From a virus, in IMG/VR virus record IMGVR_UViG_3300033153_006367, positions 1 to 23,094 of that record: a stretch of 23,094 nucleotides of DNA; one strand, given 5' to 3'. This document shows, one piece after another, positions 5,582 through 23,058 of the stretch. Position 1 is the stretch's first letter. Each line of letters starts with the position of its first letter. The position numbers were made by a program, and so were the translations under genes. The notes beneath the pieces were generated by a model that ran no database searches, was not told the DNA's origin, and saw nothing but the letters and a program-made list of their open reading frames with translations.

Positions 5582-5592
5582 TAATAAGTAAT

Positions 5593-5622
5593 GGGTATAG
5601 GGGTTTTTTAGCCCCTATACCT
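5593..5622 (+). other. Stable GC-rich hairpin between ATPase and zinc-protein genes
   Basis: GGTATAGGGG (5594-5603) pairs perfectly with CCCCTATACC (5612-5621), plus a G-U pair (5593/5622), around the loop TTTTTTAG. No T-run follows on either strand, so it is unlikely to be a classic intrinsic terminator. It may protect the upstream mRNA 3' end or act as a processing site. I noticed no other comparable stem between the operon's genes. Confidence 0.7.
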
Positions 5623-5642
5623 GAACGCAATTGGTGGTAAAT

Positions 5643-6290: not shown

Positions 6291-6299
6291 AGGGATTAC

Positions 6300-7835
6300 A
6301 TGACAGAAGAGGTAAACACCGAAATTAAAAATGTGCATAGCGAAATGCTTCTTGTGGGTGCTTTTTATAAAAACCCATCTGAGTATATTAATTGGGGTCA
6401 GTATATGCGTAGTAAATATGACTTTAGTGATGAAGCTACAAGATTTTTTTATAATTTATTTGAACAAATTTATAGAAATCATAGTGAAGAAATTGATGAA
6501 ATAAAAATCAGTACATTTGTAACTCAAGATGAAGCTGTTTATAAAAAGTATAAGAAGTTTGGTGGTTTTGAAATACTTGAAAACTGGATGCAACTTGCTG
6601 ACTCAAATGATTTTGATAAGTATTATAGTGCAGTAAAAAAATATTCATTGCTTAGAGAGTACAACAGAAATCTTATTATTTCAAACATTCCAAATCATTC
6701 AAAATTTCCAGATATGGATGCGAATGATGTTTATAGAATTGTAAGGGGTAAGGTTGATAGAATAAATACTGTAATCTCAGCAAATGAAGAAAGTGTTATT
6801 TTAAATGATGGAATGACAAATGCTGTTATTGATTATTTGTCAGCCCCACAAATGGGTCTTACTTATCCTTGGGATACACTTACGGAAATGTTTCGTGGTT
6901 GCAGATTGGGCAAGGTTGTTTTAAATGGTTTTCTTAGCAATGAAGGTAAGTCAAGAAATTTAATGATGTTAGTTGCATATATTACACTTGTTAAGGGTGA
7001 GAAATTTTTGTTGCTCAGTAATGAAATGAGCGAAGAAGACCTTAGAAGCTGTTTAATAACAACAGTTATAAACAATAAAGAATTTAAAGAACTTCATGGT
7101 GTAGATATTATTAAGCCAGAAAAAGAAATTGTTCTTGGTCAATATAGAGATAGTTATGGTAAATTTATTGAAAGATACGAAGACGAAGATGGCAATTTTG
7201 TAGAAACAAAGGGTGAGTTTTATAAAAGGGTAAGGTTGGAATCAGAAGAGTTTAGAAATGTAATGAAGGTTGTTAATTGGGTTGATGAAAAAAGTGAAGA
7301 CTTAATTTTCTTTAAGGATGTAGGCAAAGACTATTCAGACCAAACACTTGAAAGAGAATATAGAAAGCACAACATTCTTTATGGTATTAAATATATGGGT
7401 TATGATACCATGAAGGGATATAGAACTGATGATTGGCAAACTGTAAAACAAACAGCAACTAAATTAAAAGAACTAATGAAAGAAATAAATTGCTTTATGT
7501 GGGCTGTATTTCAACTTACAGATGATACTGTTTTTACAAATATCTTTGAGCTAAGTAGTAATAATATTGCAAACGCCAAACAAATAAAACACATTGCAGA
7601 CTATATGCTTTTAGGTAAAAGGGTAAATTATGGAGATTATGGAAACTATGAGTATGAAACAGTAAATTCATGGGGTGTGGGTGAAACTAAAAGATTACAG
7701 CTTGATAAAAAGTATTTTGTTATGATTGTAGAAAAGAATCGTGGTGGTAGCAAAATGTATACGCCATTATTTGAATATAATCTTGACTTAAATGTTTGGG
7801 ATAACATTGGAAGCCTAAAACAAATAGCGGTATAA
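6300..7835 (+). CDS. DnaB-like replicative DNA helicase
   Basis: 511 residues. The N-terminal helical region (HSEMLLVGAFYKNP, FYNLFEQIY) resembles the DnaB N-domain. The RecA-fold motor follows: GFLSNEGKS (210-218, K217), a variant P-loop with five residues between the glycines, then KFLLLSNEMSEEDLRS (DnaB-type H1a, S-x-E-M). MGYDTMKG with D369 is Walker B. FMWAVFQLTDD is the H3-like sensor. VEKNRGG near the end matches the DnaB-type arginine-finger region. It would unwind the phage replication fork as a hexamer. Primase follows 4 nt after the stop, so the two are tightly coupled, as in SPbeta yorI-yorJ. An insertion at about 260-330 (EDEDGNFVETKGEFYKR) makes it longer than host DnaB (about 450-470). 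Confidence 0.85.
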   Translation: MTEEVNTEIKNVHSEMLLVGAFYKNPSEYINWGQYMRSKYDFSDEATRFFYNLFEQIYRNHSEEIDEIKISTFVTQDEAVYKKYKKFGGFEILENWMQLADSNDFDKYYSAVKKYSLLREYNRNLIISNIPNHSKFPDMDANDVYRIVRGKVDRINTVISANEESVILNDGMTNAVIDYLSAPQMGLTYPWDTLTEMFRGCRLGKVVLNGFLSNEGKSRNLMMLVAYITLVKGEKFLLLSNEMSEEDLRSCLITTVINNKEFKELHGVDIIKPEKEIVLGQYRDSYGKFIERYEDEDGNFVETKGEFYKRVRLESEEFRNVMKVVNWVDEKSEDLIFFKDVGKDYSDQTLEREYRKHNILYGIKYMGYDTMKGYRTDDWQTVKQTATKLKELMKEINCFMWAVFQLTDDTVFTNIFELSSNNIANAKQIKHIADYMLLGKRVNYGDYGNYEYETVNSWGVGETKRLQLDKKYFVMIVEKNRGGSKMYTPLFEYNLDLNVWDNIGSLKQIAV

Positions 7836-7839
7836 ACTA

Positions 7840-8874
7840 ATGGACATTATTGAATTAAAAAAATATATTATTGAAAATAGCCATATTGAAAAAATATTGG
7901 AGAATATTGGCTGTCATTCAATAAAATTTCATAATGGAAGTCCAGACGATTATTATACTTGTGCGAATCCAGATGGTGATAATACAAATGCTATAACTGT
8001 TTATATTAACGACTATTTGCCATGCATAAATTATACAAGAAATATTTCAAAGACCAAAAGTTTTTCACCAGACTTAATCGCATTGGTAGAGTATTGTGAA
8101 AGCCTTTCGTTTTTTGAAGCACTAAAACATATTTGTGAAATACTTGGTCTTAATTTTTATGGAAAATTAGATGATGATATTCCAGAAAGCCTAAGAATTA
8201 CAAAGATGATAATGAATCTTTCTAGTAATAAAGAGATTGAGGAAGATGAGCCAATAAGGGTTATAGATGAAAATATTTTGAAATACTATAAACCTTATGT
8301 CAATGATATGTTTAAAGATGATGGTATAAGTTATGAAACACAATCTAATTTTGAGATTGGGTATGATGAATTGACGAATATGATAACAATTCCAATTAGG
8401 TCTGAGCTTGGAGACCTTGTTGGTGTTAAGGGAAGAATTTTTAGTGAAAGACTTTCTCCAAATAAGTCAAAATATTATTATATAGAAAGGTGTCCTAGAA
8501 ACAAAATCTTGTATGGTCTTTATAAAACATTGAAATACATAGAACAAAAGAAAGAATGCTATGTAACCGAATCAGAAAAGGGCGTTATGCAGTTATGGGA
8601 TTTGGGAATAAGAAATTCGATTGGAATTGGCGGTAAGAAAATTTCCAACCAACAAATAATAAAGATTTCTAGGGTTTCACCAAAGATAATTTTATGCTTT
8701 GATAAAGATGTAGACATAAAAGAGCTTGAAGAGATAGCGGAAAGATTCGTGGATGAAATTGAAGTTTGGGCTATTTATGACGATGATTCCTTATTAGATG
8801 AACATGAAAGCCCAACAGATTCAAAGAATAAATTTTATAAACTTTTAAAAGACAATTTAATTAGAATAAAATAA
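7840..8874 (+). CDS. DnaG-like DNA primase
   Basis: 344 residues, much shorter than host DnaG (about 580-600). The N-terminus resembles a CHC2 zinc domain: NIGCHSIKFHNG, YYTCANPDGDN and LPCIN supply Cys/His ligands, and SPDLIALVEYCESLSFFEALKHI matches the family's following helix. The TOPRIM core is seen as YVTESEKG (E244) and LCFDKDVD (D288, D290), the acidic metal-binding residues. The C-terminal helicase-binding domain of DnaG is missing. It would lay RNA primers for the neighbouring DnaE-type polymerase with the DnaB-like helicase. No good ribosome binding site is present; with only 4 nt after the helicase stop, translation is probably coupled. Confidence 0.85.
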   Translation: MDIIELKKYIIENSHIEKILENIGCHSIKFHNGSPDDYYTCANPDGDNTNAITVYINDYLPCINYTRNISKTKSFSPDLIALVEYCESLSFFEALKHICEILGLNFYGKLDDDIPESLRITKMIMNLSSNKEIEEDEPIRVIDENILKYYKPYVNDMFKDDGISYETQSNFEIGYDELTNMITIPIRSELGDLVGVKGRIFSERLSPNKSKYYYIERCPRNKILYGLYKTLKYIEQKKECYVTESEKGVMQLWDLGIRNSIGIGGKKISNQQIIKISRVSPKIILCFDKDVDIKELEEIAERFVDEIEVWAIYDDDSLLDEHESPTDSKNKFYKLLKDNLIRIK

Positions 8875-8883
8875 AGGAATATT

Positions 8884-10584
8884 ATGAAATATGAAATTAG
8901 AGAGCAACACAGTGGCGTTTCATTTATAGATGCCATTTTATTAAATAGAGGAATTGAACACCCATCAGAATATAAAAATCTTGATGATTCTTATTTACAT
9001 TCATATACACTATTGGCAAACATTGGTGATGCTGTAAAAATGTTAATGCATCATATTGAAAATAAAAGTGACATTGGCATTATTGTAGATTCTGATTGTG
9101 ATGGATATTGTTCTGCTTCTATGCTCTATATGTATTTGATACAGATATATAATAAAGATAAAATTTCATATTATATACATGAGGGTAAACAACATGGCTT
9201 ATCAAATGATATTTCTTTAAATGAAAATAAATTAGACCTACTTATTGTTCCAGATGGTGGAACGAATGATAGTGAACAGTGTAATCGTTTAAAAGCAAAT
9301 GGTATTGATGTAATTATTTTAGACCACCATCAAGTTGAAAAAAGCAATCCAAGTGCCATTGTGGTAAACCCACAAAATTGTAATTATCCAAACAAACATC
9401 TTTCTGGTGGTGGGGTTGTTTATAAATTTTTAAAGGCATTAGATGCTGAGAATTGGAATGAATATGCTGACCATTATCTTGACCTTGTAGCTCTTTCTAC
9501 TATTGGTGACTCAATGACAATGACAGATTATGAAAATAAAAGACTTGTTGATATGGGTTTATTTAATATAAATAATTCTTTTATAAAGGCACTTGTGCAA
9601 AAACAATCTTATTCAATGAATGATAAAATAAACATTATAAGTTTTCAATATTATATTGTTCCGTTAATAAATGGACTTATTAGGGCTGGAACTCAAGAAG
9701 AAAAACTTCTAATGTTTGAAGCATTTATAAACTCAAAAGAAATGCATGATTACAAAAAGCGTGGCTCTAATGCTGTGACACAAGAAACAACACAAATAAA
9801 AACAGCAAGATTATGTACTAATGCTAAAGCCAAACAAAATAGAGTTATTGATAAGGCAATTAAAAAACTTGATGAAAAAATTATTGAAAAAGGATGGGAT
9901 AAAAACCAAGTGATGTTTATTAATGCAGATGATGTTAATAAAAAATTAACTGGTTTAATAGCCATGAAACTTGCATCAAAGTATAATAAACCATGTTTAT
10001 TGCTTCGTGAAAATAAACAGTATAGTTCTTTTTCTGGCTCTGGTAGAAATATTGATTGTGATATTGTAAGTCTTAAAGATTTTCTTGCTGAAACAAAACT
10101 ATTTAATTTTTTACAGGGTCATGATTCGGCATTTGGGGTTGGAATAAAAAGGGTAAATGTAAGGTCTGCTATTAAACACATAAATGAAAAACTTACAGAT
10201 TTTGATTTCGCTAAAACTCATTTAGTTGATTTTGTTTTTAATTTTTATGATATAAATTTTGACACAATAAATGATATTTGCGAAGCTGAAAGCTATTATG
10301 GTCAGGGCATTGAACAATGTCTTGTATTGGTTGAGAATGCAAATATTATTGACCTAGATATCGAAGTAATTGGAAAAAATGAAAATACAATTAGATTTGA
10401 AAATGATGAGGGTGTCGTTTTTATAAAATTTAGATGTGGTGAAGATGATGTTTTGCGAAGCTTGTTGAGTACAGTTGATGATGTATCAATTAATATTATC
10501 GGAAAACCAACAATAAATGAATACAAGGGAATAGAGACCCCACAAATTATAATTAAAGATTTAGAAATAGTACAAAAGGACTAA
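8884..10584 (+). CDS. RecJ-like DHH-family single-strand exonuclease
   Basis: 566 residues. DHH-superfamily motifs are all present: VDSDCDG (D69, D71, D73), PDGG (D124), LDHH (D147-H149) and ALSTIGDSM (final Asp). SGGGVVYKFLKAL lies between, and GSGRN with RxDCD-like GSGRNIDCDIV at about 385-395 matches the DHHA1 end of RecJ. RecJ degrades single-stranded DNA 5' to 3' in recombination and replication repair. The position between primase and polymerase matches SPbeta yorK. It is preceded by AAAGGAA. Archaeal and eukaryotic GAN/Cdc45 relatives also act at forks, so a structural fork role is possible. Confidence 0.85.
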   Translation: MKYEIREQHSGVSFIDAILLNRGIEHPSEYKNLDDSYLHSYTLLANIGDAVKMLMHHIENKSDIGIIVDSDCDGYCSASMLYMYLIQIYNKDKISYYIHEGKQHGLSNDISLNENKLDLLIVPDGGTNDSEQCNRLKANGIDVIILDHHQVEKSNPSAIVVNPQNCNYPNKHLSGGGVVYKFLKALDAENWNEYADHYLDLVALSTIGDSMTMTDYENKRLVDMGLFNINNSFIKALVQKQSYSMNDKINIISFQYYIVPLINGLIRAGTQEEKLLMFEAFINSKEMHDYKKRGSNAVTQETTQIKTARLCTNAKAKQNRVIDKAIKKLDEKIIEKGWDKNQVMFINADDVNKKLTGLIAMKLASKYNKPCLLLRENKQYSSFSGSGRNIDCDIVSLKDFLAETKLFNFLQGHDSAFGVGIKRVNVRSAIKHINEKLTDFDFAKTHLVDFVFNFYDINFDTINDICEAESYYGQGIEQCLVLVENANIIDLDIEVIGKNENTIRFENDEGVVFIKFRCGEDDVLRSLLSTVDDVSINIIGKPTINEYKGIETPQIIIKDLEIVQKD

Positions 10585-10593
10585 TAAAAAACA

Positions 10594-13500
10594 ATGACCT
10601 ATACATCATTACACAATCACTCATACTTTTCTGTTCTTGATGGTTTTAGTTCACCAGAAGAATATCTAAAAAAAGCAACAGAACTTAATCTAAAAGCCTT
10701 TGCTATTACTGAACATGGTAATGCATATAGTTGGATATATTTTGATGAAATAAAAAACAAGTTTCCAAAAGTAAAAATGATTTATGGCGTAGAAGCCTAT
10801 GAGTGTTTTGATATTAATGAGAAAGATAAAAATAATAAATATTTTCACCTTCTTCTACTTGCAAAAAATGAAGAAGGTAGAAAGTCTTTAAATGAGATTA
10901 TTACTAGGTCAAACTTTGAAGGATTTTATTACAAGCCCAGAGTCGATATTAATATGTTAAAAGAACATGCTGATAATCTTATTGTAACAACAGCTTGTTT
11001 ATCTTCTAAAATTTCAAGAGAAAAAGATTATGATAAGTGTATTGAGTATGTTCAGGAATACAAGGATATATTCAAACATTTTTATCTGGAAATGCAATCA
11101 CACAAACACGAAGACCAAAGTGAATATAATAAAAAGATATTAAACTTATCTAAAGATACAAACACACCATTTATTATTGCAACTGATTCTCATGTAGCCG
11201 ATGAAGATGATTTGAAATATCAATCGAAAATGGTTGGCATAGCAAGAGATAGTGAAACAGAAGAAGAAATTTATGAGGGCTGTTACCTTCAATCAGTAGA
11301 AGAAATTCATGTCATTATGGACTCTCAGGTTGGTGTTAAATTTGTTGATATTGGTCTTGCAGAAACAAATAAAATTGCTGATATTATTGAAGATGTAGGT
11401 ATGCCATTTCAAGAACCAAAACTTCCACATTATCCATTGCCAGATAATTTTAAAACCAATGAAGAATATTTAAAACATTTGGTATTAAATGGTGCTGAAC
11501 AGAAAGCAATACTTTTGAATGATGATAGACAAATATATACTGATAGAGTTAGTTATGAACTTGATATAATTAATGACATGGGTTTTGCTGGATACTTTAT
11601 TATTGTATGGGACTTTCTTAATTGGGCAAAAGAAAATGATGTTATAGTTGGTGCTGGTCGTGGTAGTGCTGGTGGCTCATTAGTATGTTACCTCCTTGGC
11701 ATAGCAGAATTAGACCCAATAAAATATGATTTAATTTTTGAAAGATTTCTTAATCCAGAAAGAGTTTCAATGCCTGACATTGACCTTGACTTTGGCGATA
11801 GAGATAAAATTGTTGAATATTTAACTGACAAATATGGTGAAAATAATGTTTGTCAAATTATTAATTATTCATATATAACTCCTATTACAGCAATAAAAGA
11901 TACAGCAAGGGTTCTTGGAATACCATATAAGATTAGTGAAAAAATATCAAAAAGATTTAATCGTGGAACATTTGATGATGTAACCTTTGATGAACTCATG
12001 GAAAAAAATAATGACCTATTAGACGAATATCCTCAGTATGAGGAATTATTTGATATTGCTTCAAAGCTTTCTGGTAGGCTTCGTAATGTTAGCACACATG
12101 CAGGTGGTGTTGGGATTGTAGATACCAGCATCAATGATTATATGCCAATGAAACTTGGGGCTAAAGGTGAGCATGTTATTCAGGCTGATAAAAAGAAATC
12201 AGAAGATATTGGGATTATCAAATTTGATATTCTTGGTATCTCTACCTTGACAATGATGCAAGAAATATTGCAAGATGCTGAAATAGATGATTGGGAAATA
12301 AACCCAAATAATGCAAAATTTCTTGCAGATGAAAAGATGTGGAATCTTCTTCAAACAGCCAGAACAAATGGTGTTTTTCAAGTAGAATCTCAAGGAATGA
12401 AAGAACTTTTATTAAACTTAAAGCCAAGTTCTTTATTGGAAGTGAGTGCTATTCTGGCACTATATAGACCAGACTCTATGGAAATGCTTGAAGACTATAT
12501 TCACTACAAAGGCAATCAGGAAGAAATTGAATTGTGGCATGATGACATTGGTGACATATTAGAAGAAACTTATGGTTGTATTATTTACCAAGAACAACTT
12601 ATGGATATTGTCAGACAGTTTGGTGGCAGAAGCATGGGTGGTGCTGATAAATTTAGAAAAGCAATTGGTAAAAAAGATATGAGTTTGGTGAAAGCAGAAT
12701 CTAAAAAACTATTAGATGAAATTATTAACAATGGTTATGATAAAGAAATTGCAGAAAAGATTAGCTCTTATTTGGAGACAAAGGGTGGCTATATGTTCAA
12801 CAAATCTCATTCTGCACTTTATTCCGTTTTGACTTTGCAAACAGCATATTTAAAGGCTAATTATACAACCTATTTTTTCAAAGCACTTTTCAATCAAAAT
12901 AAAAATAATTATGGTTCTTTAAATAAATATATTGTTGATAGTATTGATTTCGGTGTAAAATTATTACCACCAGACATTAATAAATCAGACGACAATTTTT
13001 CTATTCATAATGATGAAATTATTTTTGGGTTTGATGGAATTAAAGGTATTGGAGAATCATTATCTCAAAGAATTATTAATGAAAGAAATAAAAGTAAATT
13101 TGTAAGCTTCAAAAAATTTGATGAAAGAGTGTCACCAAACGTTTCACAGGTTGTTGCACTAATTAAATCTGGTGCTATAAAATGTTCAGATAAAAGAAAA
13201 TATCTTATTGGATACGCAAAATATATTTTTAAACACAGGAAATATAAGCAAGTTGTAACACTTCCATCTAAAAAAGTATTAGAAGAAAGATGGCAAATTA
13301 AATTTGATAAAACTCTTTTAAAAGAAGAGAAACTTCAAAGATATAATGAAATTAAAAAAAGAGATTTTCAGGGTACGCAAGTTAAAAAACTTGAAAAACA
13401 TTTAAGACAATTTTCAGACAAATACTTAATAGATGATGGGGTTTGGGAATTTGAAACACTATCTGTTTTTCTTACTGCTAACCCGTTTGAAGTGGCAAGA

Positions 13501-13800
13501 AGATTTGTTTCTTCATATAAAGACACACATGAAAATGAAAGATGTGTTATAATTGGTATTATATCTAATGTAACGAAAAGGGTTGACCGTCATAAAAAAC
13601 AATTTGCATTTGTAAGTTTATATACACATGAATCAGAAATTGTTGATATTACTTTTTGGCACACCCAATACAAAAATTATCAAGACACACTAGGCAAGGG
13701 AAGCAAGGTTGCTGTGTTGTGTAGAAAACTAGAAGGCAACAGATATGTTGTCGAAAAAATGAAGGATTATAACGAATGGTTTTTGCAGACAACAAACTAG
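10594..13800 (+). CDS. dnaE: DNA polymerase III alpha subunit, DnaE type
   Basis: 1068 residues, close to Bacillus DnaE (about 1115). The N-terminal PHP domain has SLHNHSYFSVLDG (H7, H9, D16) and ITEHGN (E40, H41), with ATDSHV at about 198. The C-family catalytic core has GAGRGSAGGSLVCYLLGI and MPDIDLDFGDR (catalytic D395, D397, D399 nearby), and KFDILG supplies the third Asp (D545). THAGGVGI and GGYMFNKSHSALYS follow. The C-terminus has a helix-hairpin-helix-like part (GFDGIKGIGESLSQRI) and an OB-fold (RCVIIGIISNVTKRV). It replicates phage DNA. The start has only a distant AAGGA. The downstream helicase gene begins inside its last 25 bases. Confidence 0.95.
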   Translation: MTYTSLHNHSYFSVLDGFSSPEEYLKKATELNLKAFAITEHGNAYSWIYFDEIKNKFPKVKMIYGVEAYECFDINEKDKNNKYFHLLLLAKNEEGRKSLNEIITRSNFEGFYYKPRVDINMLKEHADNLIVTTACLSSKISREKDYDKCIEYVQEYKDIFKHFYLEMQSHKHEDQSEYNKKILNLSKDTNTPFIIATDSHVADEDDLKYQSKMVGIARDSETEEEIYEGCYLQSVEEIHVIMDSQVGVKFVDIGLAETNKIADIIEDVGMPFQEPKLPHYPLPDNFKTNEEYLKHLVLNGAEQKAILLNDDRQIYTDRVSYELDIINDMGFAGYFIIVWDFLNWAKENDVIVGAGRGSAGGSLVCYLLGIAELDPIKYDLIFERFLNPERVSMPDIDLDFGDRDKIVEYLTDKYGENNVCQIINYSYITPITAIKDTARVLGIPYKISEKISKRFNRGTFDDVTFDELMEKNNDLLDEYPQYEELFDIASKLSGRLRNVSTHAGGVGIVDTSINDYMPMKLGAKGEHVIQADKKKSEDIGIIKFDILGISTLTMMQEILQDAEIDDWEINPNNAKFLADEKMWNLLQTARTNGVFQVESQGMKELLLNLKPSSLLEVSAILALYRPDSMEMLEDYIHYKGNQEEIELWHDDIGDILEETYGCIIYQEQLMDIVRQFGGRSMGGADKFRKAIGKKDMSLVKAESKKLLDEIINNGYDKEIAEKISSYLETKGGYMFNKSHSALYSVLTLQTAYLKANYTTYFFKALFNQNKNNYGSLNKYIVDSIDFGVKLLPPDINKSDDNFSIHNDEIIFGFDGIKGIGESLSQRIINERNKSKFVSFKKFDERVSPNVSQVVALIKSGAIKCSDKRKYLIGYAKYIFKHRKYKQVVTLPSKKVLEERWQIKFDKTLLKEEKLQRYNEIKKRDFQGTQVKKLEKHLRQFSDKYLIDDGVWEFETLSVFLTANPFEVARRFVSSYKDTHENERCVIIGIISNVTKRVDRHKKQFAFVSLYTHESEIVDITFWHTQYKNYQDTLGKGSKVAVLCRKLEGNRYVVEKMKDYNEWFLQTTN

Positions 13801-16722: not shown

Positions 16723-16752
16723 CTTTGAATAAAAGAACTATTTTATGAAAAG
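16723..16752 (+). repeat. Dispersed palindrome, copy 1 (imperfect)
   Basis: CTTTGAATAAAA - GAACTA - TTTTATGAAAAG. The 6-nt loop is as in the other copies. Two adjacent mismatches (G-A, A-G) interrupt the stem. It lies between the HNH gene and the promoter at 16757. Confidence 0.7.
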
Positions 16753-16756
16753 CCTA

Positions 16757-16785
16757 TTGCTTAATTTTTAAAGATATGTTATAAT
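16757..16785 (+). promoter_or_regulatory. Sigma70-like promoter of the accessory region
   Basis: TTGCTT (16757-16762), a 17-nt spacer, then TATAAT (16780-16785), which begins the shared 11-mer TATAATTAATA. Initiation would be near A16792, the first base of the AGGAG that serves the gene at 16807. The leader would be only about 15 nt and begin with the ribosome binding site. Confidence 0.75.
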
Positions 16786-16806
16786 TAATACAGGAGAAAC
16801 AATATA

Positions 16807-17067
16807 ATGGAAGCCCAAAAAGCATATATAGTTACAAAAAATCCAATTGACCTAATAAAAGGAAGATTAGAAGACCTAAAAAGACCAGACATGTCAATGG
16901 AAGAAAAAAAAGTAGCATTTAATCACATTTTAGTTCTTCTTGATGGTACTGATTTTATTCCAGTAATAATGACTGCCAAAGGTCTTAAGATGGATAAATC
17001 AGATTCACAAGAACTTGATGAAGCAGTAGAAAGAGTAAAAAATATTGAGGGTGAAATACTTAAATGA
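16807..17067 (+). CDS. Small protein of unknown function
   Basis: 86 residues, not recognised. AGGAG lies 10 nt before the ATG. It appears mostly helical with alternating charges (IKGRLEDLKRPDMSMEEKK, then DEAVERVKNIEGEILK) around a hydrophobic middle (NHILVLLDGTDFIPVIMTA). There are no cysteines and no membrane segment. It is the first gene behind its own promoter, so likely strongly and early expressed, a position often held by phage proteins that target host functions. The next gene overlaps its stop (ATGA). Confidence 0.65.
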   Translation: MEAQKAYIVTKNPIDLIKGRLEDLKRPDMSMEEKKVAFNHILVLLDGTDFIPVIMTAKGLKMDKSDSQELDEAVERVKNIEGEILK

Positions 17068-17303
17068 ACTATATAGATAAATGTAGAGAAATTATAACAG
17101 AACAATATAAAAATAATCCAACTGGATGTGGTTTTAGCTTTGATGAAATTTTGTGTTATGAGATTCACGAAAACGGGTTAACATTTAGATGGTTAGCCGA
17201 AAAGTGGAATATTACACTGGACTTCTTAGGTGAATTAATTTACGACCATTGTAAAAGATTAAATTCACTCCCAGAAGTGAATCATAAATATGAAATTCAA
17301 TAG
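17064..17303 (+). CDS. Small protein of unknown function
   Basis: 79 residues, not recognised. The start overlaps the previous stop by 4 nt (ATGA), implying coupled translation. The N-terminal half (YIDKCREIITEQYKNNPTG) is amphipathic. LTFRWLAEKWNITLDFLGELIYDH could form two helices separated by a turn, as in a winged or helix-turn-helix fold, but this is only an impression. Palindrome copy 2 follows the stop after 18 nt. Confidence 0.62.
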   Translation: MNYIDKCREIITEQYKNNPTGCGFSFDEILCYEIHENGLTFRWLAEKWNITLDFLGELIYDHCKRLNSLPEVNHKYEIQ

Positions 17304-17321
17304 GCATATAAAGTAGAAAAG

Positions 17322-17349
17322 TTTTAATAAAAGGATTATTTTATTAAAA
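17322..17349 (+). repeat. Dispersed palindrome, copy 2 (perfect)
   Basis: TTTTAATAAAA - GGATTA - TTTTATTAAAA, an 11-bp perfect stem. It ends 4 nt before the AAGGA of the next gene. Confidence 0.88.
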
Positions 17350-17362
17350 GTACAAGGAATAA

Positions 17363-17635
17363 ATGATGACACTATACAAAGAGATAAATTTTAAAAAATA
17401 TAATTCCAAAAAAGAATTTCTCAATGGTTTTAAAGATAAATCATTTGCAAACGGTACAGCAAGAGCTTGGGTCACAAAAGAAGGAAGTTTATTTATTGGA
17501 ATAGTAGACGAAGAATGCGTATATATAACCTACGAAGAATTAAAAAATATTTTAACATATTCGTGGGAATCAAGAGAGTTCGCTTGGCAAGATGATATGA
17601 TGGATAGTTTGGGATTGGAGAGGACTAATGAGTAA
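17363..17635 (+). CDS. Small protein of unknown function
   Basis: 90 residues, not recognised. Two successive ATGs (17363, 17366) are possible starts; AAGGA at 17354-17358 is better spaced for the second. The sequence is compact and globular-looking (TLYKEINFKKYNSKKEFLNG, GSLFIGIVDEECVYITYEEL), with an acidic tryptophan-bearing end (SREFAWQDDMMDSLGLERT). There is no CxxC motif or membrane segment. It is bounded upstream by palindrome copy 2 and overlaps the next gene by 8 nt. Confidence 0.6.
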   Translation: MMTLYKEINFKKYNSKKEFLNGFKDKSFANGTARAWVTKEGSLFIGIVDEECVYITYEELKNILTYSWESREFAWQDDMMDSLGLERTNE

Positions 17636-17924
17636 TAGTAAATTTGAAAATGAACTAAAAATAATTAGAGCAATTTATGAATGGAGTTATGATAGTAATT
17701 TAGAAATTGATTTTGCCGAGCAATTATTAGAATTTCAAACCAAACTTACTTCTGATTTTGGAAGAATCCAAATTAAAACACCAGCATTTCATTTTGAAGT
17801 TCATGTACATTGGCTTTGTCCAATATGTGATGCAGATAATGAATTTGTTGGAAACCAAGAAGACGTTGACTATTATGATGAATGTCCTACATGTGGATTG
17901 GAAGTTGATGTAAGAGAAGGATAA
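17628..17924 (+). CDS. Small protein with C-terminal zinc ribbon
   Basis: 98 residues, specific function unknown. The N-terminal half is helical and acidic (KIIRAIYEWSYDSNLEIDF). The C-terminal third is a zinc ribbon: WLCPICDADNEF and YDECPTCGLEVD provide two CxxC knuckles about 24 residues apart. GAGAGGA precedes the ATG, and the gene overlaps the preceding one by 8 nt. Palindrome copy 3 lies just after the stop. It is one of several tiny Cys-rich proteins in this region, which may bind nucleic acid or host transcription machinery; that is inference. Confidence 0.68.
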   Translation: MSNSKFENELKIIRAIYEWSYDSNLEIDFAEQLLEFQTKLTSDFGRIQIKTPAFHFEVHVHWLCPICDADNEFVGNQEDVDYYDECPTCGLEVDVREG

Positions 17925-17927
17925 AAC

Positions 17928-17955
17928 TTTTAATAAAATAACTCTTTTATTAAAA
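17928..17955 (+). repeat. Dispersed palindrome, copy 3 (perfect)
   Basis: TTTTAATAAAA - TAACTC - TTTTATTAAAA. It starts 3 nt after the preceding stop and ends just before the AAGGA of the next gene. Confidence 0.88.
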
Positions 17956-17970
17956 CTAAGGAATAATGAA

Positions 17971-18183
17971 ATGGAAAATAATTGTTATGAATGCGAACAT
18001 GTAGAACTTGAAATGACAAACGTTTCTCACAATGAAGGATTTTATTGGTGTGGAGATGATAAAGAACAAAGGGCTGTAAATATTTTTAAGCCAATTCCTG
18101 ATTGGTGTCCATTAAAATTATGGACTCCTCCAAAAAATGTAGGTCAAATATATAGGGGTGTTGGAACAAAAGGTGGTGGATGA
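17971..18183 (+). CDS. Small Cys-rich protein with IPDWCPL motif (family member 1)
   Basis: 70 residues. The N-terminus NCYECEHVELE has a CxxC, FYWCGDD supplies a third Cys, and IPDWCPL at about 46-52 a fourth, consistent with one zinc site. The same IPDWCPL string closes the core of the next two genes, so these are paralogues or a shared domain. The C-terminal 20 residues are glycine-rich and appear disordered. AAGGA lies 8 nt before the ATG. The stop overlaps the next ATG. Similar ...PDWCPL endings occur, to my memory, in many phage hypothetical proteins; role unknown. Confidence 0.68.
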   Translation: MENNCYECEHVELEMTNVSHNEGFYWCGDDKEQRAVNIFKPIPDWCPLKLWTPPKNVGQIYRGVGTKGGG

Positions 18184-18497
18184 TGGGTAAGATATTAGTG
18201 GTTAATTTTTGTAAAAAAGGTAACAAAAAATGTGGGAATTTTAGGGAAAATATGTGGACATTAAATATGTGGTGTTCTGAAAATAGAAAAGTGATTACTG
18301 ACCCTGAAAATATTCCTGATTGGTGTCCGCTTCAGGAATCCCATAGTGGTGATTGTATAGTGGGTGAAGAAGACAAAGAATGGATAACAAAGGTTGCCAA
18401 TGAACGCATAATTAAATATTATGGCGAGTTTGAAACAACACAAGCAGAAAAAAGATTAGGTAAAATGTTCCGACTCATTCAAGGGGTAGAAAAATGA
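18180..18497 (+). CDS. Small Cys-rich protein with IPDWCPL motif (family member 2)
   Basis: 105 residues (a second ATG at 18183 is also possible). NFCKKGNKKCGNF and NMWCSENRKV are followed by ENIPDWCPL at about 44-52, the same four-Cys layout as its neighbours with altered first spacing. Unlike them it carries an extra C-terminal helical region (DKEWITKVANERIIKYYG, then QAEKRLGKMFRLIQ). It overlaps the genes on both sides by ATGA, so the three IPDWCPL proteins are translationally coupled and probably made in similar amounts. Confidence 0.68.
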   Translation: MMGKILVVNFCKKGNKKCGNFRENMWTLNMWCSENRKVITDPENIPDWCPLQESHSGDCIVGEEDKEWITKVANERIIKYYGEFETTQAEKRLGKMFRLIQGVEK

Positions 18498-18673
18498 AAC
18501 AATATCCAATGGCAATTTATGTGTGTGATGTGTGTCCTTTTTGGATTAAAAGTTGTGGGCATCCCCATAAACCAGATGATTATTATAAAACCGAACCAGT
18601 AGAAAGTTGTTGGGGTAGGAATATTCCTGATTGGTGTCCGTTAGATGATTACAATAAGGGCGAAGGAAAATAA
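18494..18673 (+). CDS. Small Cys-rich protein with IPDWCPL motif (family member 3)
   Basis: 59 residues. YVCDVCPFWIKSCGH gives three cysteines, VESCWGR another, and RNIPDWCPLDDYN closes the domain. It shares NIPDWCPL with member 2 and IPDWCPL with member 1. The start overlaps the preceding stop (ATGA), and a further small Cys protein starts 3 nt after its stop. The three tandem copies suggest duplication followed by strong divergence outside the motif. Probably a zinc-binding adaptor; function unknown. Confidence 0.66.
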   Translation: MKQYPMAIYVCDVCPFWIKSCGHPHKPDDYYKTEPVESCWGRNIPDWCPLDDYNKGEGK

Positions 18674-18676
18674 AAG

Positions 18677-18841
18677 ATGAAAAAATGCAAGGGTTTTAAA
18701 AAACTTGAAGGTAAGTGTAATAACATCTTAGAACAAAACGAATATTGGTGTACTAGATGTAACGCTATAAGGGTTAAATATATCATAAATCGCTTTAAGA
18801 ATATACTCGAAAATGATGATAGGAAAAGAAATGTTTATTAA
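18677..18841 (+). CDS. Very small zinc-ribbon-like protein
   Basis: 54 residues. C4, C14 and the knuckle C25xxC28 (KKCKGFKKL, GKCNN, YWCTRCNAIR) suggest a four-Cys zinc ribbon. A basic helix follows (IRVKYIINRFKNIL), as in small nucleic-acid-binding ribbons. It begins 3 nt after the previous stop, with AAGGA inside the preceding gene's end acting as ribosome binding site. It ends the cluster of Cys-rich genes; palindrome copy 4 follows directly. Confidence 0.62.
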   Translation: MKKCKGFKKLEGKCNNILEQNEYWCTRCNAIRVKYIINRFKNILENDDRKRNVY

Positions 18842-18842
18842 G

Positions 18843-18870
18843 ATTTAATAAAATGGTCGTTTTATTAAAA
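18843..18870 (+). repeat. Dispersed palindrome, copy 4
   Basis: ATTTAATAAAA - TGGTCG - TTTTATTAAAA, a stem of 10 of 11 pairs. It starts 1 nt after a stop codon and precedes the promoter at 18892. Confidence 0.87.
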
Positions 18871-18891
18871 GAATCAACTTTATATTTACCC

Positions 18892-18920
18892 TTGATTTTT
18901 AGTTTATGATGTGTTATAAT
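18892..18920 (+). promoter_or_regulatory. Sigma70-like promoter in front of the long stem element
   Basis: TTGATT (18892-18897), a 17-nt spacer, then TATAAT (18915-18920), in the context ACCCTTGA...TATAATTAATA shared with the promoter at 22513. Initiation is expected near A18927, 4 nt before the 25-bp stem starts. Confidence 0.82.
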
Positions 18921-18930
18921 TAATATATAA

Positions 18931-19086
18931 GTTGATGGGCTTTTATGGGTGTAGAAGACAATAAATTGGTTTGTAATTTTGTTAATATCTGTAGTCGCAT
19001 TTTTAAAACCACCATATGTTATGGGATGTTTTCCAGAGGATGAGCACTCTTTATTCCATTATCTACACCCATAAAAGTCTATCAAT
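18931..19086 (+). ncRNA. Candidate structured RNA bounded by a 25-bp stem, with its own promoter
   Basis: Bases 18931-18955 pair without interruption with 19062-19086 (25 pairs, three of them G-U; core CTTTTATGGGTGTAGA/TCTACACCCATAAAAG). They enclose 106 nt. Inside, TGGTTT can pair with AAACCA (about 18967-18972 and 19007-19012) and ATGGGA with TTCCAT (19021-19026 and about 19054-19059), so a three-way junction is possible, as in the 1776-1888 element. The predicted transcript starts 4 nt before the stem. No T-run follows it, so transcription probably continues into the gene at 19111. It may be a stable RNA released by RNase III or a structured leader. A short hydrophobic frame also lies inside (see findings). 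Confidence 0.6.
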
Positions 19087-19110
19087 AAAAAATAAAAGGA
19101 GTTTAATTAT

Positions 19111-19320
19111 ATGTCAAACCCAATTAGACGAGAAGAGAGAATTTGTTTTGGAGTCGAGTGGTATGCAACTGAAAAAGAAGCAATGGAAGTAGATGAAGTT
19201 GTACAAAAAAATGGTGAGGTTTATAATGGTGGGTATATGCACAATCACCCATACGGAAGACGACCAGAATTTGACTGTATTAGAGATAATGAAAAACAAT
19301 TTGCAGTAACAAGAAGGTAG
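19111..19320 (+). CDS. Small protein of unknown function
   Basis: 69 residues, not recognised. A strong AAGGAG lies 9 nt before the ATG. The sequence has an alternating beta-like middle (ICFGVEWYATEKEAMEVDEV) and a His-rich turn (GGYMHNHPYGRRPEFD). The string HNHPYGR could bind metal or sit in a turn, but no family is evident. It follows the 25-bp stem element directly and is probably transcribed from the 18892 promoter together with the RNA ligase 6 nt downstream. Confidence 0.62.
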   Translation: MSNPIRREERICFGVEWYATEKEAMEVDEVVQKNGEVYNGGYMHNHPYGRRPEFDCIRDNEKQFAVTRR

Positions 19321-19326
19321 GAAAAA

Positions 19327-20409
19327 ATGGATAGAAAATTAGCATCAATTCAAGAGATAAAAGAAATACACCCAATCGAAGATTATGATAGGGTGGAATT
19401 AGCCATTGTTCAAGGATGGCAGGTTATTGTAATGAAAGACCAATTCAAGGTTGGAGATAAAGCAGTTTATATTGAGATTGATTCTGTTCTTCCAAACTGG
19501 AAAGAAGAGTTTGAATTTCTTCGCAAACGAAAATTTAGAATTAAAACCATTAAAATGTGTGGTGTTATTTCTCAGGGAATTTGTTTCTCAGTTGATATTC
19601 TTCCAGATGGAAAGACATATAAAATTGGTCAAGATGTAACTGATATTCTTGAGATTAAGAAATATGACCCACAACCACAAAGAATGCGACAAGTAAATCC
19701 AAACGCAAAGAAATATCCAAAGTTTTTGATGAAAATGAATTGGTTTAGAAAACTTGTCTTAAAAGGAAAAGACTTTCGTGGCTTCCCTTCATTTATTTCA
19801 AAAACTGATGAAACACGGATTCAAAACTATCCATTAGTTTTGAAAAGAAAAGATGTTGAATTTATTGTTCGTGAAAAAATTGATGGACAATCTGGAACTT
19901 TCTTTTTAAAGAAAAATAAAAAAGGCTTATTCAGAAAGGTAAGTTATGAGTTTGGTGTTTGCTCACGCAATATGCGAAAATGGAAAGAAGATGATAGTTC
20001 ATTTTGGAGTGTGGCAAAAAGATATGATATTAAAAATGTTCTTGGGTCACTTATTTTCGATTATGATTTTATAGCAATTCAGGGCGAGTGTATTGCACCG
20101 AATGTACAAGGTAACAAGTATAAGGTTGACAAACCAGATTTTTATGTGTTTAATTTAATTACACCACATGGCAAAATCGAATGTGAACTTGGTGAAAGAA
20201 TTTTAATAAAACATGGCTTAAAATGGTGTCCGATAGTTGAAAGAAGATTTGTTCTTCCAGACACAGTAAATGAATTACTTGATTATGCTACTGGCGAATC
20301 AAATTTATGTGATGGCGTACTTCGTGAGGGTCTTGTATTTAGAAACTACGAAAAACAAATCTCATTTAAGGCTGTATCAAATGAGTTCTTACTTAAATAT
20401 GGAGAATAA
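19327..20409 (+). CDS. RNA ligase, DRB0094-like family
   Basis: 360 residues. An N-terminal OB-like domain (GWQVIVMKDQFKVGDKAVYI, then FRIKTIKMCGVISQGICF) resembles that of DRB0094-type RNA ligases. The nucleotidyltransferase domain follows with motif I EKIDGQSG (nucleophile K184), a motif III-like AIQGECIAPNVQGNKY, motif IV EGLVFR and motif V SFKAVSNEFL. The enzyme would adenylylate an RNA 5'-phosphate and seal a nick. In phages such ligases often repair tRNAs cut by host anticodon nucleases, which fits the tRNA genes in this window. No polynucleotide kinase is visible here. It starts 6 nt after the upstream stop. Confidence 0.88.
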   Translation: MDRKLASIQEIKEIHPIEDYDRVELAIVQGWQVIVMKDQFKVGDKAVYIEIDSVLPNWKEEFEFLRKRKFRIKTIKMCGVISQGICFSVDILPDGKTYKIGQDVTDILEIKKYDPQPQRMRQVNPNAKKYPKFLMKMNWFRKLVLKGKDFRGFPSFISKTDETRIQNYPLVLKRKDVEFIVREKIDGQSGTFFLKKNKKGLFRKVSYEFGVCSRNMRKWKEDDSSFWSVAKRYDIKNVLGSLIFDYDFIAIQGECIAPNVQGNKYKVDKPDFYVFNLITPHGKIECELGERILIKHGLKWCPIVERRFVLPDTVNELLDYATGESNLCDGVLREGLVFRNYEKQISFKAVSNEFLLKYGE

Positions 20410-20410
20410 C

Positions 20411-20806
20411 ATGGATGATGGCTTAGATTTATTTGAAGATTTTTTAGATAAAAATGATGATGATGAAGATATAAGTCCAATCGAAGAAAATGAATCAACT
20501 GAAGAGGTTGGACTGAGCGAAGAAGAAATTGCAGAAGACATAGCCGACATCACAAAAATAAGATATTGGCTTAGAAGGGGGGATATGACATGGTTTCCAA
20601 ATGTTAATAGACCACCTTTTAGTGGTTGGTATTTAGCATATCTTGTCAATCAAGAAGGTGAAAAGTTTCAATGGGTAGCACAATTTGATACAGAAAAAAT
20701 GGGTTGGACTTGCCCTCTTCCATTTTTAGTGCAAGTATCAATGTGGACTTATTTTCCACCAATGCCAAGTGGACATCACCACATGGTTATAAAAGAAAAT
20801 TGGTAG
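20411..20806 (+). CDS. Acidic protein with DUF551-like C-terminus (unknown function)
   Basis: 131 residues from ATG 20411, chosen because GGAG lies 6 nt upstream and earlier in-frame ATGs fall deep in the RNA ligase gene. Residues 1-45 are very acidic (LFEDFLDKNDDDEDISPIEE), likely a disordered tail. The C-terminal 75 residues are rich in W, P and aromatic residues (GDMTWFPNVNRPPFSGWYLA, then VSMWTYFPPMPSGHHH). The ending resembles the W-x-x-P-x-P pattern of DUF551, a common phage protein, but I cannot confirm it. The acidic front could mimic DNA or bind a basic partner. Confidence 0.58.
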   Translation: MDDGLDLFEDFLDKNDDDEDISPIEENESTEEVGLSEEEIAEDIADITKIRYWLRRGDMTWFPNVNRPPFSGWYLAYLVNQEGEKFQWVAQFDTEKMGWTCPLPFLVQVSMWTYFPPMPSGHHHMVIKENW

Positions 20807-20815
20807 AGGTAAAAT

Positions 20816-21127
20816 ATGCTTATTAAATTTATCGTTGATGGAATTACAAGCAAAATAGATTTCAGAAAATCAGACCTAAAAATAGGTATGGTTCTCGTTT
20901 TGGAATGTGGGGTAAGATATATGCTCATAGATGACCAAGGTTATGAATTGGTTGGATTTATAGATGGCAAATCAAGAGATGCATACCTTGGTGAATGGAA
21001 TGATGATTTAACTTTTAATTATTGGGATGAACGTACTGGAATAAGACATGCTGAATACGATGTATTAGAGGTTATTGATTATAGTGGGGAATTTCTAGCT
21101 ATGATTGAATCAACGAGAAACCTTTAA
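20816..21127 (+). CDS. Small protein of unknown function
   Basis: 103 residues, not recognised. It is beta-rich (LIKFIVDGITSKIDF, GMVLVLECGVRYMLI, YELVGFIDGKS) with an acidic middle (YLGEWNDDLTFNYWDERTG), suggesting a small barrel. GAGGT lies 6 nt before the ATG, 9 nt after the previous stop. The stop codon is part of the left arm of palindrome copy 5. Confidence 0.6.
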   Translation: MLIKFIVDGITSKIDFRKSDLKIGMVLVLECGVRYMLIDDQGYELVGFIDGKSRDAYLGEWNDDLTFNYWDERTGIRHAEYDVLEVIDYSGEFLAMIESTRNL

Positions 21128-21149
21128 TAAAATAAGAGTTTTATTAAAA
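21122..21149 (+). repeat. Dispersed palindrome, copy 5
   Basis: CTTTAATAAAA - TAAGAG - TTTTATTAAAA, 10 perfect pairs. The left arm contains the TAA that ends the preceding gene. Confidence 0.87.
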
Positions 21150-21163
21150 GTAAAGGGAAAATA

Positions 21164-21394
21164 ATGATTTGTAAAGAGTGTAAAAAAGAAGGCTTAAAAA
21201 GTACAATTTATATTGCTAGTGGTGGAATTACAACCCTTATGGGCGATTCAAGATACTATGATGAAGAAGGAAACTATCATCATCACGACCCAAATAAAAC
21301 AAGTGCAAGACATTGGTGTAGTAACGGTCACGAATGGTATGTAACCAGCCAAACTAAATGTCCATCTTGTGATTATGGAAAAAAAATAACATGA
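21164..21394 (+). CDS. Small zinc-ribbon protein
   Basis: 76 residues. The two knuckles are CKEC at residues 3-6 (MICKECKKEG) and CPSC near the C-terminus (TKCPSCDYGKK). Between them are HHHDPNKTSARHWCSNGHEW, extra Cys/His residues and a hydrophobic beta region (STIYIASGGITTLMG). This resembles zinc ribbons with an inserted loop. A well-placed AAAGGG precedes the ATG. The stop overlaps the next ATG. Function unknown. Confidence 0.66.
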   Translation: MICKECKKEGLKSTIYIASGGITTLMGDSRYYDEEGNYHHHDPNKTSARHWCSNGHEWYVTSQTKCPSCDYGKKIT

Positions 21395-21630
21395 AATTAT
21401 ATATAACAGAAAAAATAGAGTCTGATGTGCTAATGGCGATTGAATGTGATAGATGTAAGAAATTTTATGATGAACCATATGATATGCAAGAGTTTCTTTG
21501 TTTAAATTTTCATGGTGGCTATTATTCTGTTTTTGGTGATTTAGTTCAAGTAGAAGCAGATATTTGCCAAAACTGTTTAAAAGAAATGATTGAAGCATTT
21601 TGTAGAATTAAAGAAATAGACTTTTCATAA
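21391..21630 (+). CDS. Small CxxC zinc-binding protein
   Basis: 79 residues. IECDRCKKFYD (about 18-28) and ICQNCLKEM (about 58-66) form a pair of CxxC knuckles. The middle is aromatic and beta-like (FHGGYYSVFGDLVQVEADIC), resembling small phage treble-clef or ribbon proteins. It overlaps the previous gene by ATGA, so the two zinc proteins are coupled. The stop codon TAA at 21628 lies in the left arm of palindrome copy 6. Confidence 0.65.
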   Translation: MKLYITEKIESDVLMAIECDRCKKFYDEPYDMQEFLCLNFHGGYYSVFGDLVQVEADICQNCLKEMIEAFCRIKEIDFS

Positions 21631-21650
21631 AATGAAGATTTTATGCAAAG
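21621..21650 (+). repeat. Dispersed palindrome, copy 6 (with compensatory change)
   Basis: CTTTTCATAAAA - TGAAGA - TTTTATGCAAAG. Compared with the consensus, A-to-C in the left arm is matched by T-to-G in the right arm, preserving the pair. Only one T-C mismatch remains in 12 positions. It includes the upstream stop codon. Confidence 0.83.
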
Positions 21651-21666
21651 ATTAAGGGAAAATAAG

Positions 21667-21843
21667 ATGAAAGCTAAAATAAAAGAATGTCCAGAGTGCA
21701 AAAGAGATAGTCTTAATAGTTTTTGCGAAATGTGTCAGTATAGTGAAAAACTGTGTACATGTGGACAACCACTATATTATTTAGAGTGCTGTAATTGTGG
21801 ATATTCAGAGACATCTTTGGACATGTTGTTTGGAAAAATATAA
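21667..21843 (+). CDS. Small protein with three CxxC zinc knuckles
   Basis: 58 residues from ATG 21667, which has AAGGGA upstream. The earlier in-frame ATG at 21643 lies inside the palindrome and is rejected. Cysteines occur as CPEC, CEMC, CTC, CCNC and a final CGY, an unusually Cys-dense protein resembling a double zinc ribbon (KECPECKRDSLNSFCEMC, then LCTCGQPLYYLECCNCGY). Probably a structural zinc module that binds nucleic acid or protein. Function unknown. Confidence 0.65.
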   Translation: MKAKIKECPECKRDSLNSFCEMCQYSEKLCTCGQPLYYLECCNCGYSETSLDMLFGKI

Positions 21844-21845
21844 CA

Positions 21846-21875
21846 CTTTACATAAAATATACGTTTTATTAAAAG
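21846..21875 (+). repeat. Dispersed palindrome, copy 7 (imperfect)
   Basis: CTTTACATAAAA - TATACG - TTTTATTAAAAG. The 6-nt loop is kept; two adjacent mismatches fall at the same place as in copy 1. It starts 2 nt after a stop codon. Confidence 0.78.
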
Positions 21876-21907
21876 TATTAAATTATTAAATTAAAAGGAG
21901 ATTAGAT

Positions 21908-22144
21908 ATGCAAGGTGTTACTGAAGGAAAGATGGTGCATGTTGTTTTAGAGAATGGGGAGCATAGACCAGCAGTAATAGTTAAGGTTTGGAGTGAAGAA
22001 ACAGGCTGTTCAAACCTCCAAATGTTTACAGATAGCCCACCAGAAGCAAATTTGAATGATTGTCTTCCTCAAGTTAAATGGCTAACATCGTTTGTTTATA
22101 GTGAAGAGCCAATATTAAATACGTGGCACTGGATGGAGAAATAG
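21908..22144 (+). CDS. Small widespread-type phage protein of unknown function
   Basis: 78 residues. The pattern VHVVLENGEHRPAVIVKVW, then NLQMFTD, W-LTS-VYSEE and a C-terminal NTWHWMEK is one I recall from many short phage and prophage proteins, with G-x-HRPA, W, N-L-x-x-F and T-W-H-W conserved. It is probably a small beta-barrel, function not known. AAAGGAG precedes the ATG. The last base of its stop codon touches palindrome copy 8. Confidence 0.68.
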   Translation: MQGVTEGKMVHVVLENGEHRPAVIVKVWSEETGCSNLQMFTDSPPEANLNDCLPQVKWLTSFVYSEEPILNTWHWMEK

Positions 22145-22173
22145 TTTTAATAAAACGTGCATTTTATTCAAAC
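22144..22173 (+). repeat. Dispersed palindrome, copy 8
   Basis: GTTTTAATAAAA - CGTGCA - TTTTATTCAAAC, one mismatch. The closing pair is G-C here but C-G in copies 6 and 7, a compensatory change. It begins at the stop of the preceding gene. The 90 nt that follow hold only weak hairpins (GTTCT/AGAAC, AGGT/ACCT) and a strong AAGGAG. Confidence 0.83.
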
Positions 22174-22548: not shown

Positions 22549-23058
22549 ATGAAAGATACATTAAGATTACTAATTACATTAAAGTGCAATTTTAATTGTG
22601 AGTATTGTTGTAATGAGCAAGAAGAATTTAACTCTCAATTTTGTTATAAAAACTTTAGTGAAATTGACCTTAATCAATATCGTACCATTTGTATAACTGG
22701 TGGAGAGCCATTTATAAATAGAGATTTGCTATATGGTATCTTAGATGAAATTCCACTAAATAAAAGGGTTTATATTTATACAAATGGAACGCTTATTGAA
22801 AAAGCAGATGTTTTTAAACTATCAACATATGATAATCTTAGAGGATTAAGTATTGGCGTTCATTCTTCAAATCAACTATATAACATAAATAGAGATGTTT
22901 ATGAAATTTTAGATTGTAGATTTATGATTCGAGATACAATGTATGACCAAATAAAAATAGAACATATTGACAGACTAAAAGGTCAAGCAATAAAACTATG
23001 GTCTATGAATGATTGCAATATGCCCAATGAAGATTGGATTGTATTGAAAGGAATTTAA
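22549..23058 (+). CDS. Small radical SAM protein
   Basis: 169 residues. CNFNCEYC (13-20) is the CxxxCxxC site for a [4Fe-4S] cluster that cleaves S-adenosylmethionine. ITGGEPFINRDLL is the GGEP AdoMet-binding motif, and RVYIYTNGTLI is the next core strand. It is about half the usual radical SAM length: the end of the barrel is short and there is no SPASM or Twitch cluster domain, so it may be a minimal maturase or need a partner. The start is fixed because Cys13 is essential. No ribosome binding site precedes it and the promoter lies directly upstream, implying a leaderless mRNA. The next gene begins 1 nt after its stop. Confidence 0.85.
   Translation: MKDTLRLLITLKCNFNCEYCCNEQEEFNSQFCYKNFSEIDLNQYRTICITGGEPFINRDLLYGILDEIPLNKRVYIYTNGTLIEKADVFKLSTYDNLRGLSIGVHSSNQLYNINRDVYEILDCRFMIRDTMYDQIKIEHIDRLKGQAIKLWSMNDCNMPNEDWIVLKGI

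Follow-up and report, generated by a model that had tools for sequence, protein, structure and literature searches.

The stretch of DNA analysed here is a complete 23-kb record of the IMG/VR database (IMGVR_UViG_3300033153_006367; 23,094 nucleotides), which as a whole we call the window. From 16.7 to 22.2 kb, it carries a stretch of small genes separated by a dispersed palindromic element, and our comparison with Bacillus phage SPbeta and its relatives suggests that this element is probably a recombination site whose six central bases (N6) work as an address. By scanning the window for the pattern TTTTAATAAAA-N6-TTTTATTAAAA with at most three mismatches, we found eight matches against 0.04 expected in dinucleotide shuffles, so that the eight-copy dyad reported in an initial annotation is real; as also reported, no copy was found upstream of 16.7 kb. 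Each site is a 28-bp dyad composed of an 11-bp arm, six central bases and the inverted 11-bp arm. The annotation was right in giving the centre a constant length of six nucleotides, and its sequence is distinct at each of the eight sites. Four of the annotated start positions were correct and four were one base early (true starts at 16724, 21622, 21847 and 22145).

As had been proposed, the copies lie after stop codons and before the next gene, with stop-to-site distances of 3, 18, 3, 1, -6, -9, 3 and 0 nt for sites 1 to 8; the negative values belong to sites 5 and 6, which supply the stop themselves. Between 16.72 and 22.26 kb, junctions of at least 36 nt each have exactly one site and junctions of 9 nt or less have none. 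Since wide junctions have one site and tight or overlapping ones none, the region is partitioned into seven blocks, each with one to four genes that are mostly coupled (Table 1). We also observed that the base just beyond both arms is always G or C, and unpaired, at all eight sites (e.g. 16723 and 16752), which might be an extra recognition position in the window lineage, SPbeta being devoid of it.

Table 1. Sites, cassettes and replication module in the window (ORF, open reading frame).
Feature	Position	Strand	Sequence	Remarks
Site 1	16724-16751	+	TTTGAATAAAA-gaacta-TTTTATGAAAA	3 nt past the stop of an HNH gene; TTGCTT/TATAAT promoter-like pair downstream
Cassette, sites 1-2	16807-17303	+		two small ORFs, overlapping
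Site 2	17322-17349	+	TTTTAATAAAA-ggatta-TTTTATTAAAA	pattern scan
Cassette, sites 2-3	17363-17924	+		two small ORFs, overlapping; one zinc-finger-like
Site 3	17928-17955	+	TTTTAATAAAA-taactc-TTTTATTAAAA	pattern scan
Cassette, sites 3-4	17971-18841	+		four small coupled ORFs; IPDWCPL motif in three
Site 4	18843-18870	+	ATTTAATAAAA-tggtcg-TTTTATTAAAA	pattern scan
Cassette, sites 4-5	19111-21127	+		four ORFs, one an RNA ligase with OB-fold domain
Site 5	21122-21149	+	CTTTAATAAAA-taagag-TTTTATTAAAA	contains the stop codon of the upstream gene
Cassette, sites 5-6	21164-21630	+		two ORFs, overlapping
Site 6	21622-21649	+	TTTTCATAAAA-tgaaga-TTTTATGCAAA	contains a stop codon
Cassette, sites 6-7	21668-21843	+		single small ORF; start set at 21668
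Site 7	21847-21874	+	TTTACATAAAA-tatacg-TTTTATTAAAA	pattern scan
Cassette, sites 7-8	21908-22144	+		single small ORF
Site 8	22145-22172	+	TTTTAATAAAA-cgtgca-TTTTATTCAAA	abuts a TAG stop
SPbeta-type replication module	4508-13800	+		Sak4, unnamed, DnaB, primase-like, RecJ, DnaE; order as SPbeta yorG-yorL

Then, the element was found to be phage-wide in the SPbeta group. SPbeta has 34 occurrences of TAAAA-N6-TTTTA, that is with a spacing of six, and the prophage G023 has 29, against 0-5 at every other spacing from 0 to 29; six further SPbeta-like prophages carry 25-30 copies apiece. The consensus is TYTnnATAAAA-N6 followed by its inverse, in an 11-6-11 arrangement; in SPbeta the information content stops at the 11th arm base, and the outer arm consensus varies by lineage. 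These sites are located mostly straight after a stop codon and ahead of the next ribosome-binding site, and those of the window match them in core, spacing, arm length and placement. Tyrosine-recombinase sites have a fixed centre of 6-8 bp flanked by inverted arms, about 11-13 bp long, and the window, SPbeta, G023 and others show this architecture. An N6 site is also present just upstream of aimR in G023 (L069-L075; 72537) and in SPbeta (76171), where it adjoins a putative site of the master repressor MrpR.

Judged by its replication module, whose order matches yorG-yorL, the window represents part of an SPbeta-like phage; its RecJ and DnaE are respectively 37% and 26% identical to those of SPbeta. 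The nearest contig with the arms of the window is a 38-kb one (G001), in which a looser pattern uncovered three strong copies of the window-type palindrome: one in the space where two gene blocks converge, another separating two genes, and another where a small ORF starts. It encodes a terminase, tail and other structural proteins and a tyrosine recombinase.

The sequence of the centre was compared across 16 SPbeta-like genomes. According to the initial annotation, the loop varies completely. This holds within a genome, as we found a single case of the same N6 occurring twice in one genome across nine genomes, and near-identical N6 are rarer than expected within G023. It does not hold between genomes, where the same N6 recur in the same order (267 concordant and 21 discordant comparisons of shared addresses). 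First, identical N6 are found at sites with both DNA flanks unrelated: for the B. subtilis group together with G023, we counted 99 such pairs where 9.3 were expected, and for a second set, in which SPbeta, phi3Ts and G023 were joined by six additional diverged prophages, 116 against 13.7 (null maximum of 26 in 300 draws), both sets having SPbeta, phi3T and G023 in common; these counts take related genomes as separate, so that the exact ratios do not reflect independent events, and two largely separate clades agree. The excess persisted in a protein-level control (303 identical-N6 pairs against 38.7 expected), where unrelated also meant no protein similarity over 400 bp on either side. Second, N6 was identical in 40 of 43 site pairs related only in their right flank, and in 13 of 28 pairs related only in the left one. 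Third, N6 pairs with one mismatch were not in excess (228 against 240 expected), so N6 is either identical or unrelated, and does not drift. The address TGCATA, for instance, was seen in eight phages next to six left flanks unrelated to one another and seven right flanks that are likewise unrelated. Together, these data indicate that N6 behaves as an address in the relatives compared, with partners sharing an identical centre.

Two of the eight window addresses were looked for elsewhere. GGATTA (site 2) is also present, with other arms, in nine prophage records that carry the putative recombinase YomM (see below), and its left and right halves are joined in new combinations in different prophages; TAACTC (site 3) had no match in YomM-bearing prophages or viral contigs. 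With two addresses tried out of eight, the overlap for GGATTA is not significant alone. Separately, in BUCT082 (L085) the site at 5387 has both flanks belonging to TCGTAC and, as centre, TCATTC, which elsewhere is the address of the neighbouring site; this may reflect an address change.

We also mapped the borders of mosaic blocks in nine Spbetavirus genomes. The sites account for only 1.3% of the sequence, yet contained 154 of the 832 distinct homology breakpoints, and the shared blocks mostly begin at the first base of the TAAAA core and stop just after TTTTA. When the analysis was limited to same-strand gene junctions of at least 20 nt, a breakpoint was present at 32 of the 38 junctions with a site and at 38 of the 87 without (Fisher p = 2e-5). 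In phi3T (L083; 24715-26090), nip (phi3T_120) and phi3T_121 are flanked by the addresses GATAGT and TATTTA, which also exist in SPbeta with a different filling; nip is a counter-defence gene (PMC11984713). Ten phi3T-SPbeta hybrids published in that work have phi3T_120-121 in common. In SPbetaL2 (L090; 26911-27804), a gene that the record names Gad1 is found among the cassettes of the variable region.

Tyrosine-recombinase sites of the dif/lox type have inverted arms and a centre of fixed length in which partners must agree. Given the inverted 11-bp arms, the fixed six-base centre and the centre-matching rule with free arms and flanks, we consider it probable that the 28-bp elements are such sites, address-coded and dedicated to ordered cassette exchange. 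One recombinase protomer would occupy each arm, with crossover taking place in the 6 bp between them. Across the sites of a phage the arms are near-uniform, and the centre differs from site to site and would serve as address. When two related phages meet in one cell, the recombinase would exchange DNA only between sites with identical centres, and a cassette, comprising between one and four small genes, would be swapped, between matching addresses, for the content of the other phage, with place and order preserved. Because the centres differ within a genome, its own sites could not recombine with each other and no gene would be deleted; because a site follows a stop codon and precedes the next ribosome-binding site, every swap would be gene-compatible. 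It is also rather likely that SPbeta-like phages of several hosts possess a common grid of dozens of orthogonal, collinear addresses and a dedicated phage recombinase, which would allow an ordered and deletion-free exchange of genes, including counter-defence genes, between co-infecting phages. The sites may moreover play an additional part in transcription.

As for the enzyme, conservation and co-occurrence designate YomM of SPbeta as the best candidate. It is the sole protein in our comparison that reaches 82-86% identity in every one of the seven diverged relatives, in contrast to the terminase (24-91%) and DnaE (23% in one of them). Between relatives, another candidate enzyme, YopP, is only 31-46% identical. 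MrpR, which has a tyrosine-recombinase fold, was rejected, being 32-40% identical between relatives and catalytically dead (PMC10516654). The YomM family extends to 76 viral contigs, and the aligned members keep all six catalytic positions, except for HxxK in place of HxxR in the Bacillus clade; the catalytic set R-K-HxxR-H/W-Y is found in G001 and in distant members. The G001 homologue is 31% identical, has R-K-HxxR-H-Y intact and, like yomM in SPbeta, is encoded among late genes. YomM has weak sequence similarity to Cre, and the N6 dyad is enriched in several distant YomM-bearing records, one of them having 37 matches against 6 for the reversed pattern. The recombinase of the window phage is not encoded within the 23 kb of the window.

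Several observations weigh against the proposed exchange system. First, 678 of the 832 breakpoints lie outside sites, which implies that homologous recombination also acts. Second, laboratory phi3T x SPbeta hybrids (Hyb1-3, PP526179) cross over inside long identical blocks, and therefore neither confirm nor refute the use of sites. Third, N6 differs in 15 of the 28 pairs related only in their left flank, 12 of these 15 being an exact reversal (TGATAA/TTATCA) in one slot. Fourth, YomM of the Bacillus clade has Lys instead of the second catalytic Arg, a change that can weaken or abolish activity in other members of the family. Fifth, the YomM-positive G050 (1 vs 8) and G055 (0 vs 2) are not enriched for the dyad, and G008 is enriched without any YomM in its 73 kb. 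Finally, the motif family is missing from the DnaE relatives about 52% identical to the window protein; the address behaviour was observed in Bacillus-clade relatives, from which we infer that the window sites would act alike.

The slot with reversed centres is the yorC-yorE slot of the SPbeta relatives (L082-L090), in which either TGATAA or its reverse complement TTATCA is found beside left flanks that are related, which looks like a flip of the centre.

A motif scan of the phage and its relatives had been suggested in the initial annotation; positive within the SPbeta group, it was negative for those DnaE relatives (L006-L018), in which the window's TTTTAATAAAA-type palindrome family is absent and a 9-mer palindrome search uncovered nothing recurrent. 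The whole record of one of them (G011, for L006) is modestly enriched for the looser core (11 vs 2). The RNA-ligase relatives (L031-L046) do not have the palindrome family of the window either, and some of their whole records show a weaker enrichment for TAAAA-N6-TTTTA. Pattern matches in genome contigs (L053-L068) are mostly single isolated copies.

The breakpoints located outside sites, which are the majority, would fit another scenario, in which homologous or single-strand-annealing recombination, driven for example by the phage Sak4, uses the 16-bp TAAAA-N6-TTTTA as a linker at gene borders, the arms being conserved for a different purpose such as binding a regulator. These phages do encode Sak4-like annealing proteins, and relaxed homologous recombination is considered the main source of phage mosaicism (PMC3945230). 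However, tolerant annealing should leave an excess of one-mismatch N6, which we did not find, and 16 bases are very short for such recombination. Annealing would also leave unexplained the fixed 11-6-11 architecture, the unique addresses and the extreme conservation of a tyrosine recombinase. We therefore regard this scenario as unlikely.

Alternatively, the sites could be operators of a dimeric phage regulator that blocks or tunes transcription within operons, like stoperators or SPBRE, the MrpR operator of SPbeta. The dyads are indeed dispersed upstream of genes, and MrpR, with its tyrosine-recombinase fold, binds a repeated intergenic element (PMC10516654). We inferred the SPBRE sequence from the promoter regions of PaimR and PyosX, both studied in that work; the two share a different sequence, ACAAATACAAA..AATATGTATA, so that identity of our sites with SPBRE is rejected. 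Moreover, a regulator has no use for locus-specific centres common to unrelated cassettes, and a plain operator, as put forward in the initial annotation, explains neither identical N6 beside unrelated genes nor breakpoints at sites. This makes the operator hypothesis quite improbable.

An RNA hairpin that punctuates transcripts had also been proposed, and compensatory changes between the arms had been reported. A hairpin that punctuates, protects or terminates early transcripts would suit both the location right behind stop codons and the better folding of single copies compared to shuffles (z of -2.5 to -6.3). We could not substantiate the compensatory changes: the C-G pair of copy 6 is a single occurrence, and copies 1, 6, 7 and 8 are altered in a single arm. 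In these four copies and in those of G001, one-arm changes create G.A, A.G, A.A, C.U or T.C oppositions; G.U is never among them. Of the 8 window copies, 5 are complementary at the outermost G/C position, as would follow from independent variation of the two arms. Likewise, in 55 copies from SPbeta and G023 the pairing of outer positions equals the shuffled expectation (e.g. 26 vs 26.9), the lone exception among ten outer pairs tested being marginal (p 0.04 uncorrected, strict Watson-Crick). Isolated copies are predicted to fold with only -4.8 to -8 kcal/mol and with AT-only stems; we found neither a terminator U-tract nor a G+C-rich stem at the sites, and a search against Rfam returned tRNA matches only. 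Since the outer arm positions do not covary, the element is not an RNA hairpin, and the weak AT-only stems, the lack of a U-tract or of a non-tRNA Rfam match and the locus-specific N6 make a hairpin or intrinsic terminator highly improbable. The data support instead arms that are two independently varying half-sites of a symmetric DNA-binding protein, which is the part of the earlier proposals that stands. Spreading miniature mobile elements, the last proposal, would account for many near-identical copies scattered between genes but are largely refuted by the address pattern, as there is no conserved interior and N6 is unique within genomes yet conserved at orthologous addresses, which leaves them next to no probability.

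Other features of the window are given for completeness. Three adjacent small proteins (17971-18673) have the IPDWCPL motif in common and may be duplicated cysteine-rich paralogues. Radical-SAM proteins are encoded near one end of both the window (22549-23058) and G001 (L047:404-1447). The two contigs, whose phage modules complement each other, may be pieces of related phage genomes.

The proposed site-specific exchange resembles several known systems. Xer/dif sites and the pdif modules of Acinetobacter likewise have 28 bp, 11-bp arms and a 6-bp centre that must match, with gene modules between sites. Here, in contrast, there are about 25-35 sites per phage genome, with near-symmetric arms, an address of their own, collinearity between phages and a recombinase that is likely phage-encoded. 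A host Xer/dif system would act through host XerC/XerD on a dif-like arm sequence, to which the present arms may be similar. Near-symmetric arms, a spacer that determines the partner and cassette replacement between two non-identical site pairs are shared with the Cre/lox system of phage P1 and with engineered lox variants that are heterospecific, but P1 naturally possesses a single lox site, the spacer of which has 8 bp; in the open-access literature searched, we found no natural set comprising dozens of orthogonal spacers. Integron attC sites also lie right after stop codons, with small-gene cassettes and a tyrosine recombinase; however, attC is active as a single strand in folded form and its cassettes enter arrays, whereas matching addresses of two genomes would be exchanged here. 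SPBRE, also from this phage group, is likewise a dispersed intergenic repeat to which a protein with a tyrosine-recombinase fold binds (PMC10516654), but it has another sequence, about nine ChAP-seq peaks and no variable spacer, and is bound by a catalytically dead member of the family. Among dispersed elements at small-gene junctions, T4-type PeSL mobile regulatory cassettes differ by their conserved promoter plus stem-loop unit, which is not seen here. Mycobacteriophage stoperators (PMC9283540) differ by an asymmetric sequence without a variable address. In the open-access literature, we found no description of these sites or of a function for YomM, and priority is thus uncertain.

The mosaicism of phage genomes is a long-standing question, for which current work favours relaxed homologous recombination (PMC3945230). 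If the proposed exchange system is true, mosaicism in the SPbeta group would be a built-in function that neither scrambles nor deletes the phage's own genes, and the sequence would reveal which phages trade, in which slots, and which blocks of genes travel together. It would constitute a natural counterpart of recombinase-mediated cassette exchange, and its set of orthogonal spacers could serve as a useful tool. The idea can be tested directly, SPbeta and phi3T being laboratory phages. Finally, with nip of phi3T (PMC11984713) occupying such a slot, the system would bear on the spread of anti-defence genes.

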